This document shows, piece after piece, positions 9,569 to 12,640 of a stretch of DNA of 64,000 nt. Numbering within the stretch: the first letter of the stretch is position 1; every line of letters begins with the position of its first letter. The DNA comes from Micromonospora marina. Its GTDB lineage: Bacteria; Actinomycetota; Actinomycetes; Mycobacteriales; Micromonosporaceae. The translations under genes and the position numbers were made by a program. The notes beneath the pieces were generated by a model. That model saw nothing but the letters and a program-made list of their open reading frames with translations. It did not search any database and was not told the DNA's origin. The stretch lies in the NCBI RefSeq assembly GCF_900091565.1, contig NZ_FMCV01000001.1, positions 248,001 to 312,000 of the forward strand, written 5' to 3'.

Positions 9569-11998
9569 TCAGAGCTTGTCGATCGGGGCGTGCCGCAGCA
9601 CCAGCCACATGGTCTGGTCGCCGAAGTCGATCTGGGCCCGGGCACCCGGCCCGGCCCCCTCCACCGCCAGCACCCGGCCCAGGCCGTACCGCTGGTGGTT
9701 GACCCGGTCCCCGACGGAGACCTTCGGGGCCTGCTTCAGCTCGCTCGCGGTGGCCAGACGGCTGGCGTCCACGCCCAGCCGCTTCGCCAGTTCGGTCGCC
9801 TTGGGCGTGCCGCCGGCGAAGCCGCCGCGGCCGAGCCGGTCCGCCCGGCCACCCACGCCGCCGCCTCCGCCGCCCCACGAGGTGTACGACCCCTCGGTGC
9901 GCTCCCAGCGGACCAGCTCCGGTGGCAGCTCCTCCAGGAACCGAGACGGCGGGTTGTAGGCGGGGGCGCCCCACGCCGAGCGGGTCACCGCGCGGGACAG
10001 GTAGAGGCGCTGGCGGGCCCGGGTGATGCCCACGTACGCCAGCCGCCGCTCCTCCTCCAGCTCGCGGGTGTCGCCGAGCGAGCGCAGGTGCGGGAAGACG
10101 CCGTCCTCCAGGCCGGTCAGGAAGACCACCGGGAACTCCAGGCCCTTGGCCGTGTGCAGCGTCATCAGCGTGACGACACCCTGATGCGGCGCGGCATCGT
10201 CTGCCTCCGCGCCGTCAGGCGCCGAGCCCGGTGACGCAGGGATCTGGTCGGCGTCGGCGACGAGCGCCACCTGCTCCAGGAAACCGGCGAGCGTGGCCCG
10301 CTCGTCGTCGGCGCCGAGCGCCTCGATCCGCTCGGTGTACTCCCGGGCGACGCTCACCAACTCCTGGAGGTTGTCCACCCGGCCGGCGTCCTGCGGGTCG
10401 AGGCTCTCCTCCAGCTCGGCCAGGTAGCCCGAGCGGGTCAGCACCGCCTCCAGCACCTCCTCCGGCGTGCCGGTGCCGGCCAGTTCCCGGGCCGCGTCGA
10501 GCAGCGCGACGAACTCGGCGATGCCGTTCGCGGCCCGGGTGGAGATGCCCGGTGCGTCCTTGGCCCGGCGCAGCGCGGCACCGAAGGAGACGCGGTCCCG
10601 GGCGGCCAGCGCCTCCACGCACGCCTCCGCCCGCTCGCCGATGCCCCGGCGCGGGGTGTTGAGGATGCGGCGCAGGCTGACCGTGTCGTCGTCGTTCACC
10701 ACCGCGCGCAGGTACGCGAGCGCGTCGCGCACCTCCTTGCGCTCGTAGAAGCGCACCCCGCCGACCACCTTGTAGGGCAGGCCGACCCGGATGAACACCT
10801 CCTCGAACACCCGGGACATGGCGTTGGTGCGGTAGAACACCGCCACGTCGCCCGGGCGGGTCTCGCCGTCGTCGACCAGCCGGTCGATCTCCCGGGCCAC
10901 CCAGTCGGCCTCGGCGTGCTCGGTGTCGGCGACGTACCCGACGATCTGTTCGCCGGACCCGGCGTCGCTCCACAGCCGCTTCGGCTTCCGGGAGGTGTTG
11001 CGGTCGATCACCGCGTTGGCCGCGTTGAGGATGGTCTGGGTGGAGCGGTAGTTCTGCTCCAGTAGGATCGTGCGGGCGTCGGTGAAGTCCCGCTCGAACT
11101 CCAGGATGTTGCGGATGGTCGCACCGCGGAACGCGTAGATCGACTGGTCGGCGTCACCGACCACGCACAGCTCCGCCGGCGCGACCCCCTCGGTCCCGGA
11201 GACCAGCTCCTTGATCAGCACGTACTGGGCGTGGTTGGTGTCCTGGTACTCGTCCACCAGCACGTGCCGGAACCGGCGCCGGTAGCTCTCCGCCACGTGC
11301 GGGCGCGACTGGAGCAGGTGCACCGTCGTCATGATCAGGTCGTCGAAGTCCAGCGCGTGCGCCTCGCGCAGCCGCCGCTGGTAGAGCGTGTACGCCTCGG
11401 CCAGCGCCCGCTCGTTCGGCCCCTTGGCCCGGCCGGCGAACTCCTCCGGGTCGACCAGCTCGTTCTTCAGGTTCGACACCTGCGCGGCCAGGCCCCGGGC
11501 CGGGTAGCGCTTCGGGTCCAGGTCCAGCTCGCGGGCGACCATCTGCATCAACCGGCGCGAGTCGTCCGCGTCGTAGATCGAGAACGTCGACTTCAGGCCG
11601 GCGTGTTCGTGCTCGGCCCGCAGGATGCGTACGCAGGCGGAGTGGAACGTCGAGACCCACATGAGCCGGGCGCGCGGGCCGACCAGTGCGGCCACCCGCT
11701 CCTTCATCTCACCGGCGGCCTTGTTGGTGAACGTGATCGCGATGATCTCGCCCGGGTGCACGTCGCGGGCGGCGAGCAGGTAGGCGATCCGGTTGGTCAG
11801 CACCCGGGTCTTGCCGGACCCGGCGCCGGCCACGATCAGCAGCGGGGAGCCGGCGTGGGTCACCGCGTCCCGTTGCGGGCCGTTCAGGCCGTCGAGGAGG
11901 GCAACCGGGTCCGACCCGGTGCCCCCGGGACGGCGCGGCGGGGTCGGCCGGGACTCCGGCGCGGGCGGGGACGCGGGAATGTCGAAGAGAGGATGCAT
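9569..11998 (-). CDS. pcrA: ATP-dependent DNA helicase PcrA/UvrD1 (SF1A)
   Basis: 809 residues. A Pro-rich N-terminal tail (~1-30) is followed by the Q-motif LNGPQRDAV, Walker A AGAGSGKT (57-64), motif II VDEYQDTN, QNYRST (motif III/IV area), VMTLHTAKGLEFPVVF-type motif V, and VGITRARQRL (motif VI). The C-terminus carries the Tudor-like module (VSVGDRVNHQRYGLGRVL) that binds RNA polymerase in PcrA/UvrD proteins. It is a 3'-5' helicase for nucleotide excision repair and removal of RecA or RNA polymerase roadblocks. It is monocistronic and divergent from the chorismate mutase leader. Length and all motifs are intact. Confidence 0.95.
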   Translation of the reverse strand: MHPLFDIPASPPAPESRPTPPRRPGGTGSDPVALLDGLNGPQRDAVTHAGSPLLIVAGAGSGKTRVLTNRIAYLLAARDVHPGEIIAITFTNKAAGEMKERVAALVGPRARLMWVSTFHSACVRILRAEHEHAGLKSTFSIYDADDSRRLMQMVARELDLDPKRYPARGLAAQVSNLKNELVDPEEFAGRAKGPNERALAEAYTLYQRRLREAHALDFDDLIMTTVHLLQSRPHVAESYRRRFRHVLVDEYQDTNHAQYVLIKELVSGTEGVAPAELCVVGDADQSIYAFRGATIRNILEFERDFTDARTILLEQNYRSTQTILNAANAVIDRNTSRKPKRLWSDAGSGEQIVGYVADTEHAEADWVAREIDRLVDDGETRPGDVAVFYRTNAMSRVFEEVFIRVGLPYKVVGGVRFYERKEVRDALAYLRAVVNDDDTVSLRRILNTPRRGIGERAEACVEALAARDRVSFGAALRRAKDAPGISTRAANGIAEFVALLDAARELAGTGTPEEVLEAVLTRSGYLAELEESLDPQDAGRVDNLQELVSVAREYTERIEALGADDERATLAGFLEQVALVADADQIPASPGSAPDGAEADDAAPHQGVVTLMTLHTAKGLEFPVVFLTGLEDGVFPHLRSLGDTRELEEERRLAYVGITRARQRLYLSRAVTRSAWGAPAYNPPSRFLEELPPELVRWERTEGSYTSWGGGGGGVGGRADRLGRGGFAGGTPKATELAKRLGVDASRLATASELKQAPKVSVGDRVNHQRYGLGRVLAVEGAGPGARAQIDFGDQTMWLVLRHAPIDKL

Positions 11999-12090: not shown

Positions 12091-12120
12091 TTGCGCGCCC
12101 GCCCGGATGGTCGGCATACT
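12091..12120 (+). promoter_or_regulatory. Promoter of the chorismate mutase leader
   Basis: TTGCGC (12091-12096) and CATACT (12115-12120) have an 18-nt spacer. The predicted start, about 7 nt later, falls on the GTG at 12128, so the leader peptide would be translated from a leaderless mRNA. Confidence 0.6.
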
Positions 12121-12127
12121 CGACAGC

Positions 12128-12193
12128 GTGTTCGATCAGCGCTTCTCCTTTTACTACGGCACCGGGAGTCCGGCAGCCGTAGGTCGCGCCTGA
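12128..12193 (+). CDS. Phe/Tyr-rich leader peptide of the chorismate mutase attenuator
   Basis: A 21-codon frame from GTG 12128 to TGA 12193. Its first ten residues read VFDQRFSFYY: three Phe and two adjacent Tyr codons, all TTC/TTT/TAC, in ten positions. It is followed by a protector hairpin, an alternative antiterminator pairing and a perfect terminator before the chorismate mutase gene, so ribosome stalling at Phe/Tyr codons is the likely sensor. There is no ribosome-binding site; the promoter spacing suggests leaderless initiation. The product itself probably has no function beyond being translated. Confidence 0.75.
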   Translation: MFDQRFSFYYGTGSPAAVGRA

Positions 12194-12223
12194 TCACAGA
12201 CCTGCGAAACGCCCCGGGCTCCC
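12155..12223 (+). promoter_or_regulatory. Attenuator: protector hairpin and antiterminator
   Basis: Protector hairpin: TACGGC/GCCGTA (12155-12160 with 12176-12181) and CCGG/CCGG (12162-12165 with 12170-12173). Its 5' arm includes the second Tyr codon (12155-12157). Antiterminator: 12164-12173 (GGGAGTCCGG) pairs over 10 bp, one G.U, with 12214-12223 (CCGGGCTCCC), which is the 5' arm of the terminator. A ribosome stalled at the Phe/Tyr codons would cover the protector arm and allow antitermination. The mutual exclusivity is read directly from the sequence; regulation by charged tRNA(Phe)/tRNA(Tyr) is inferred. Confidence 0.75.
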
Positions 12224-12240
12224 AGAGCCCGGGGCGTTTT
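12209..12240 (+). terminator. Attenuator terminator upstream of chorismate mutase
   Basis: A perfect 13-bp stem, ACGCCCCGGGCTC (12209-12221) with GAGCCCGGGGCGT (12225-12237), has a CCA loop and runs into TTTT. It lies 46 nt upstream of the chorismate mutase ATG and after the leader stop codon. Confidence 0.9.
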
Positions 12241-12286
12241 CGTTCCGGGATCCGGGTACCGGGCCCGAGCCCCGAGAGGGACGACG

Positions 12287-12640
12287 ATGATGACTGACGT
12301 GGTGGAGTCCAGCGGCAGCCTGGCGCGGCACGACTTGACGGCCGGCGGCGACCCGACCGGGGCCGCGGCGGCCCGGACCGGCACCGACGACGCGGCGGCG
12401 GCCGAGCGGATCGGCGAGATCCGGCGGCGGATCGACGAGATCGACCGCACCCTCATCGCGCTCTGGCAGGAGCGGGCGGCGCTCTCCCAGGAGGTCGGCG
12501 CGACCCGGATGGCGTCCGGCGGCACCCGGCTGGTGCTCTCCCGCGAGCGGGAGATCCTGGAGCGGTTCCGGTCCGAACTCGGCGCCGACGGCACCCAGCT
12601 CGCGCTGCTGCTGCTGCGCGCCGGCCGCGGCCCGCTGTGA
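12287..12640 (+). CDS. Chorismate mutase (AroQ type)
   Basis: 117 residues; ATG 12287 has GAGAGGG 6 nt upstream (a second ATG follows directly). After ~38 variable residues, an AroQ helical domain starts with RIGEIRRRIDEIDRTLIALWQERAAL, the classic R-x-x-IDxIDxxLIxLLxxR pattern, then VGATRM (Lys replaced by Arg at a substrate-contact position) and SREREILERF. It converts chorismate to prephenate, the first committed step to Phe and Tyr, matching the Phe/Tyr codons of the attenuator upstream. It is short, like free-standing mycobacterial-type mutases that can be activated by DAHP synthase. It is convergent with the peptide ABC operon. Confidence 0.88.
   Translation: MMTDVVESSGSLARHDLTAGGDPTGAAAARTGTDDAAAAERIGEIRRRIDEIDRTLIALWQERAALSQEVGATRMASGGTRLVLSREREILERFRSELGADGTQLALLLLRAGRGPL

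Follow-up and report, generated by a model that had tools for sequence, protein, structure and literature searches.

A leader peptide and mutually exclusive RNA helices point to attenuation upstream of a Micromonospora chorismate mutase gene

In Escherichia coli, chorismate mutase and prephenate dehydratase are fused in the product of pheA, whose leader includes a ribosome-binding site. Among actinobacteria, Corynebacterium glutamicum is described as having a Phe-Tyr-Phe leader (aroR) before aroF, a DAHP synthase gene (Neshat et al. 2014, through PMC4046766 and PMC11802643); according to the accessible part of the latter source, it responds to Phe limitation and not to Tyr. The same text, a 2025 review, has the chorismate mutase (CM) of C. 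glutamicum controlled via a complex with DAHP synthase and Phe (PMC11802643, accessible part). In Streptomyces lividans, trpL, ilvL, and leuL are leaderless leaders; as far as the available text of that study goes, its table of eight holds none for Phe/Tyr and its main text does not contain the word chorismate (PMC8079986). For mycobacteria, the available part of PMC4633059 describes cysteine uORFs and leaderless short frames. A comparative survey from 2005 found, in the portion at hand, the Phe and Tyr operons of Actinobacteria to be without conserved RNA regulatory structures (PMC1262725). In our full-text search, which left subscription papers mostly outside, no report of a CM leader peptide in actinobacteria was recognized, and a prior report is possible. 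The accessible parts of PMC1262725, PMC8079986, PMC11802643, PMC11525245, PMC5784534, PMC9094748, PMC4128351, PMC13236596, PMC6437058, PMC4633059, and PMC4046766 mention no leader for Rv0948c/CM.

We studied a locus in a 64-kb stretch of Micromonospora marina DNA (the window), in which a short frame rich in aromatic residues lies upstream of a monofunctional CM gene. It is highly likely that a ribosome-mediated transcription attenuator controls this gene. As judged from the sequences, the leader very probably turns CM on when phenylalanine runs short. The elements of the locus are as follows.

12091–12096, + strand: -35-like TTGCGC, with an 18-nt spacer to the -10 box
12115–12120, + strand: -10 box CATACT, ending 7 nt before the GTG
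12128–12193, + strand: leader-peptide frame MFDQRFSFYYGTGSPAAVGRA, probably leaderless; 21 codons, GTG at 12128–12130, TGA at 12191–12193
12134–12142, + strand: 5′ arm of basal helix P0 (MFE; arm-permutation test)
12149–12151, + strand: rare Phe codon UUU (Phe8), two codons before Tyr-Gly; proposed main control codon
12154–12160, + strand: 5′ arm of the protector hairpin, CUACGGC, with the Tyr-Gly codons, including Tyr10 (MFE fold, alignment)
12164–12173, + strand: 5′ arm of the outer antiterminator helix (alignment, folding)
12176–12182, + strand: 3′ arm of the protector hairpin, GCCGUAG (MFE fold, alignment)
12179–12185, + strand: 5′ arm of the inner antiterminator helix, GUAGGUC (alignment, folding; added here to the elements of the preliminary description)
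12186–12195, + strand: 3′ arm of basal helix P0, spanning the stop codon (MFE; arm-permutation test)
12199–12205, + strand: 3′ arm of the inner antiterminator helix, GACCUGC (alignment, folding)
12207–12240, + strand: intrinsic terminator hairpin with U tract (MFE, covariation, folding)
12214–12223, + strand: 3′ arm of the outer antiterminator helix, within the terminator 5′ arm (alignment, folding)
12274–12281, + strand: Shine-Dalgarno-like GAGAGGGA of the CM gene (sequence)
12287–12640, + strand: chorismate mutase of 117 aa, like intracellular MtCM (Pfam PF01817, E 1.9e-10; PDB 2qbv, E 7.2e-19)

The solved structure closest to the encoded enzyme is 2qbv, the intracellular enzyme of Mycobacterium tuberculosis, which matches residues 41–117. 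Similarity to Rv0948c extends over the domain, and the C-terminal GRG-L tail (RAGRGPL) is present, which places the protein in the MtCM type, presumably AroQ-delta. A type II DAHP synthase is also encoded in the genome. The terminator hairpin lies about 45 nt upstream of the CM start and clear of its Shine-Dalgarno site. The neighboring uvrD/pcrA helicase gene (9569–11998) is divergent and therefore cannot be served by this terminator, which stands between a promoter and that promoter's own gene and has no other evident use. A T-box or riboswitch was considered and rejected, as no Rfam match reached the gathering score in the 64-kb window; at a relaxed threshold the best match scored 21.8 bits against the 70 required and lay on the opposite strand.

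The 21-codon frame carries Phe at positions 2, 6, and 8 and Tyr at 9 and 10, exactly as first described. By eye, no Shine-Dalgarno site precedes its GTG in the window sequence, and with a -10 box 7 nt before this codon the earlier label of a leaderless frame appears well founded. In all 80 aligned family sequences, an xATAxT hexamer (CATACT in 73) is present 6–7 nt before a leader-frame start codon, where several in-frame starts were possible and the one best fitting the hexamer was chosen. The start codon is GTG in 75 of these sequences and ATG in 5; none of the 80 has a Shine-Dalgarno-like string ahead of it, and 61 of them have a TTG at a spacer of 15–19 nt from the -10 box. Both the promoter position and the leader Phe codons are conserved in relatives. 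In S. lividans, the measured distance from the -10 box to the transcription start averages 6.3 nt (PMC8079986, available text); therefore, the 5′ end of the transcript should coincide with the start codon or adjoin it.

To follow the leader across genomes, we searched whole genomes for CM and scanned the upstream DNA by a strict rule: a frame of 8–40 codons within 1 kb, a.A...T hexamer ending 4–9 nt before its start, and at least three F/Y/W in six codons. The rule was satisfied in 25/25 genomes of the genus and in 59/60 of the family (58/59 plus G235), in which the gene itself is present in 60 of 61 genomes. In L133, the one family miss, promoter, Phe-only leader, and terminator are recognizable by eye. 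Elsewhere in the order, a strict leader was found in 14 of 15 genomes representing 14 other families (G031 is counted both here and in f8); the exception, L090, carries MTCRQFYFGYRIPVPVSG and lacks the hexamer. The named loci (Micromonosporaceae and close MAGs), 78 of which pass the strict rule (best 80 among the matches listed), overlap the family genomes.

A class-wide sample, whose families bear the working labels f8, f29, f30, and f31 (the last in the same class as the window), had a CM match in at least 58 of 196 genomes, a lower bound because at most 28 candidates were scored per genome. Strict leaders were present in 17/18 cases in f31, 10/16 in f8, 1/16 in f30, 3/5 in three other families, and 3/3 in the window's own genus. 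Altogether, 18 of the 20 families in which a CM gene was found have a strict leader in at least one genome. Of the 15 non-strict loci in f30, 12 show a frame that follows a -10-like hexamer and contains just one Phe-Tyr pair (FYGGRARSPLCR, FYGDRARSPLHR, and HFYQGPG types). These one-pair leaders (L099, L102, L360, L362, L364, L365, L368–L371; L100, L106) resemble one another.

Several single loci depart from the pattern. Two of the six f8 misses, L045 and L048 of genus g18, have by eye a short leaderless-type frame devoid of an aromatic run at the same place before CM, perhaps a decayed or re-purposed leader. L038, also of f8, has retained the leader MLSKQRFFYGYRSAVPVV and lost the terminator hairpin of its relatives; in L027, the leader is present and a terminator is not evident.

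The same rule was applied to controls. Type II DAHP synthase (found in 41/41 genomes) and prephenate dehydratase (39/41) gave strict leaders at 0/30 loci each, the best-scoring 30 of each being scanned over 1.1 kb at a fixed position, so that the position may be wrong where a contig end truncates the locus; both were rejected as further leader targets. Second copies of CM gave 0/12 (7+5), among them L139 with a weak Phe and Tyr frame, and the opposite strands of the named loci 0/76. L143, which has no CM match, falls outside this control, and L104 has little upstream DNA.

All RNA elements of the preliminary description were found in place. The minimum free energy (MFE) fold contains the protector with a Tyr codon in its 5′ arm. 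The 10-bp antiterminator (12164–12173 with 12214–12223) is present, one of its pairs being U-G, and the 13-bp terminator (12209–12221 with 12225–12237) has no mismatch and is followed by UUUU, which can in part pair with AAA at 12207–12209. The claim that these structures exclude each other also stands, as antiterminator and terminator share 12214–12221. The stretch 12129–12245 folds 6.2 s.d. below its own shuffles. Two further helices were found. An inner antiterminator helix is nested within the antiterminator described earlier, and a basal helix closes the protector, joining the codons that lead up to the Phe run with the stop-codon region. This basal helix (12134–12142 with 12186–12195) might in addition restrict renewed initiation at the leaderless start.

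The conservation of these pairings was studied in alignment A2, which comprises 80 family sequences out of 82 primary loci; the anchor rule missed L075 and L133, both of which have a leader by eye. Each pairing was compared with 500 shuffles and with partners slid by 1–3 columns. Bases able to pair fill 97.3% of the protector cells (both-side changes in 6 cells, from C-G to U-A in 5 sequences), 92.5% of the antiterminator cells (both-side changes in 18), and 96.6% of the terminator cells (both-side changes in 27). For each of the three, the number of both-side cells and the covariation score were reached by 0/500 shuffles. By the number of changed pairs, shuffles scored as high in 0/500 cases for the terminator, 32/500 for the antiterminator, and 97/500 for the protector. 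Sliding the partners lowered the paired cells to 19–62% and the covariation score in every case, although at two shifts the protector had 14 both-side cells, more than the 6 of the true pairing, and a slid antiterminator had 5, 5, and 7 changed pairs against 5 for the true pairing. Within the family, these comparative data make the predicted terminator well supported and the antiterminator supported; for the proposed protector, the support comes chiefly from conservation and score. The inner antiterminator helix is kept in more than 95% of cells, and its variation consists mostly of one-sided wobble changes. As for the basal helix, its own arms gave −16.88 against −15.77 (sd 0.29) for permuted arms, with 0/2000 permutations as good, in 55 family sequences, one of them from the window's genus; the statistic ignores relatedness.

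Outside the family, alignment A3 of 18 very similar f31 rows revealed covariation in the terminator, with both-side changes in 4 pairs and 2/500 shuffles as high. The f31 protector is nearly invariant across these 18 rows and gives no covariation signal. In the antiterminator, 92.4% of cells are paired, and the 2 cells with both-side changes belong to the inner helix (3/500); the outer helix is paired in 80% of cells and shows no both-side change. The check proposed at the outset, namely whether leader and pairings are conserved in relatives, was thus carried out and did not refute the attenuator, the pairings being kept in 92–97% of cells in the 80 family sequences.

Across families, the most constant control codon is the Phe codon UUU, while other Tyr codons come and go. 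It occupies position -2 from Tyr-Gly in 61/79 family leaders (L114, which lacks the Tyr-Gly codon pair, is outside the count), 10/10 of f8, 18/18 of f31, and 8/12 of other families (L027, L090, and L107 being outside this count). Of 171 Phe codons in the family leaders, 110 are UUU, compared with 2 of 77 in seven neighboring frames of the window (Fisher p 7e-23); this background comes from a single genome, and the unpaired, U-rich context may play a part. The footprint of a stalled ribosome reaches about 12–13 nt downstream of the A site. With UUU 12149–12151 in the A site, the footprint would end near 12162, covering 12154–12160 and freeing 12164 onward. The Tyr codon before Gly lies within the protector hairpin and is the sole regular Tyr in f31 leaders.

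We also folded partial transcripts. From the assumed edge of a Phe8 stall to the terminator loop, the RNA is predicted to form the two-helix antiterminator (−34.5 kcal/mol); in the same free-RNA fold a stall at Tyr10, which covers half of the antiterminator arm, leaves only −19.4 kcal/mol. In the assumed stall state, the antiterminator fold was also obtained for one sequence each from f8, f31, and the f29 DAHP synthase leaders. Nevertheless, the complete RNA with a ribosome stalled at Phe8 still favors the terminator (−47.2), while the RNA up to the terminator loop favors the antiterminator (−37.1) even without any ribosome. Equilibrium folding alone therefore gives no switch, and folding order must decide both states, as in classical attenuators.

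From this arrangement, we infer the following course of events. Transcription would start at, or within about one base of, the GTG, and the ribosome would begin the leader without a Shine-Dalgarno site. When charged tRNA-Phe (and tRNA-Tyr) is plentiful, the ribosome would reach the TGA and cover the inner antiterminator helix with its footprint; the terminator would then form, and transcription would end before CM. When Phe is short, the ribosome would stall above all at UUU 12149–12151, with its footprint over the protector 5′ arm and ending just before 12164, so that 12164–12185 could pair with 12199–12223 before the terminator can form and CM would be made. If the leader is not translated at all, protector and basal helix should form first and lead to termination.

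Since UUU is the most constant control codon, the stall placement fits, and a Tyr10 stall would cover the antiterminator arm, Phe is probably the main signal in such a model and Tyr a secondary, weaker one. As for the proposal that the leader senses both end products, its Tyr part is weaker than first put forward, given that the other Tyr codons are variable and Tyr10 is placed in the hairpin.

Other explanations have to be weighed against the attenuator. The short frame could encode a small conserved protein that has a function of its own, with the hairpin merely as its terminator, and the peptide is indeed strikingly constant in the genus (GTGSPAAVGRA). However, the constant residues coincide with helix arms, and between families little beyond the aromatic run and Tyr-Gly remains. 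Moreover, L121, L130, L132, L134, L135, and L137 carry a version of the arm CCGGCAGCCGUAGG that lacks two bases (CCGGGCCGUAGG and the like), which puts them in a new frame after Tyr-Gly (GRPGRRSR, ERPSRRSR) with a different stop. The C-terminus of these six leaders, which may share one event, is changed, yet the RNA arms around GCCGUAGG and GACCUAC are kept; in f31, L357 also leaves the usual frame past Tyr-Gly. A small protein is thus highly improbable. The compact conserved aromatic motif (FYFYYG, RFFYG, FLFTYG) would also suit nascent-chain arrest, with the peptide sequence stalling the ribosome, perhaps with free Phe as the ligand, and not uncharged tRNA. We consider this very unlikely, as the aromatics vary in order and number, the most constant feature is a rare codon at a fixed position, and the residues preceding the motif are few, to our knowledge fewer than in most known arrest peptides.

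Attenuation acting on translation initiation or through Rho-dependent termination, at least in some lineages, is an unlikely reading that could account for the missing hairpin of L038 and the weak U tracts behind several f8 hairpins. The hairpin of the window, on the other hand, is perfect, GC-rich, followed by a U tract, and clear of the Shine-Dalgarno site, with 96.6% of the cells paired in the family. It might also be argued that GC-rich sequence easily gives such pairings by chance, the outer antiterminator and the terminator being CCGG-rich and able to pair by composition. The fold z-score of −6.2, the covariation scores, and the strict-leader counts (0/76 for opposite strands, 0/60 for two further genes of the aromatic pathway) reduce this explanation to a practically negligible one, and for the leader it is refuted by conservation. 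The attenuator thus agrees best with the features observed: end-product codons precede a biosynthetic gene, covarying helices exclude each other, and the protector overlaps the control codons. The preliminary reading of a classical attenuator is therefore supported by the conserved leader, promoter position, and Phe codons as well as by the retained pairings.

A covariance model, R1, was run on the window's own genome and class-wide. In its own genome, it gave 16 matches up to E 10, including the element (1.2e-41) and its opposite strand. G000:C45 (1.5e-4) was considered as a second copy and rejected, being a plain terminator behind a gene and lacking a leader; the remaining matches were weaker and mostly partial. 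Class-wide, matches occurred in 117 of 196 genomes, a figure not used as a count because many of them cover the terminator part only or lie on the opposite strand of a hairpin. Ten R1 loci were inspected, one of them in the window's own genome: seven lie before DAHP synthase and three are plain terminators.

In f29, the R1 sites precede DAHP synthase and include leaders like MRTAWSFWYGDGPVRTDRLHALR and MQRNFWRFYGYRPDTPVACRALR; the enzyme belongs to the type I family (PF00793, E 2.5e-79 in L254). Its gene is present in 44 of 98 class genomes, and a strict leader was found at 16 of the 30 loci scanned:

Type I DAHP synthase loci with a strict leader: L293, L294, L295, L297, L303, L306, L307, L310–L315, L319, L320, L322

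All 16 leaders stand behind a -10-like box, abound in Trp, Phe, and Tyr, and are followed, by eye, by a GC-rich hairpin. For the other 14 loci, a relaxed rescan at a fixed position detected no leader, and a gene-anchored rescan revealed a weaker one-Phe leader in L302 and L318. Trp occurs in 14/16 of the strict DAHP synthase leaders against 1/80 of the family CM leaders and 7/126 over all strict CM matches (at least one, L053, being a wrong pick), a contrast that may reflect taxonomy, as the two sets come from different families. In both kinds of leader, the start is of the leaderless type, the aromatic residues run into Tyr-Gly (RFFYGYRPPVAV for CM in L097, RFYGYRPDTPVA for DAHP synthase in L255), and a terminator-like hairpin follows. 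CM belongs to the branch leading to Phe and Tyr, and DAHP synthase is common to Phe, Tyr, and Trp, so that the codons of each leader seem matched to the end products of the enzyme behind it. We give an even chance to the idea that one old attenuator cassette in the class Actinomycetes serves two enzymes of the pathway and was recoded for each, with Phe/Tyr codons for CM, Phe/Tyr/Trp codons for type I DAHP synthase, and the rare codon UUU as the common sensor.

If the proposed control operates, the CM leader would add a gene-level switch at the branch point between Phe/Tyr and Trp, in families that include producers of antibiotics, Micromonospora being one. Because the codon sets are matched, Phe/Tyr in one case and Phe/Tyr/Trp in the other, the idea lends itself to a direct test, and a leaderless attenuator with a rare-codon sensor would be a simple model for leaderless translation.

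Among known systems, the locus resembles E. coli pheA, whose Phe-rich leader (pheL) and alternative hairpins control chorismate mutase activity (named in the available part of PMC11802643). Unlike in E. coli, the gene encodes a monofunctional MtCM-like enzyme, the start is of the leaderless type, Tyr-Gly lies in the protector, and a second antiterminator helix is nested. With C. glutamicum aroF, as described in the accessible literature, it shares an actinobacterial Phe/Tyr leader, which there precedes DAHP synthase and not CM; our Phe-first reading agrees with the reported response of aroF to Phe and not to Tyr. With the leaders of S. lividans and mycobacteria, to the extent covered by the available text, it shares leaderless short frames upstream of amino-acid genes. 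The preliminary description had named trp, leu, and ilv examples in actinomycetes and none of this kind. The published Phe-Tyr-Phe leader of aroF calls for a correction of that statement; for CM itself, no leader was recognized in the literature as far as its text was accessible. The CM leader is best read as a new, widespread case among classical leader-peptide attenuators.
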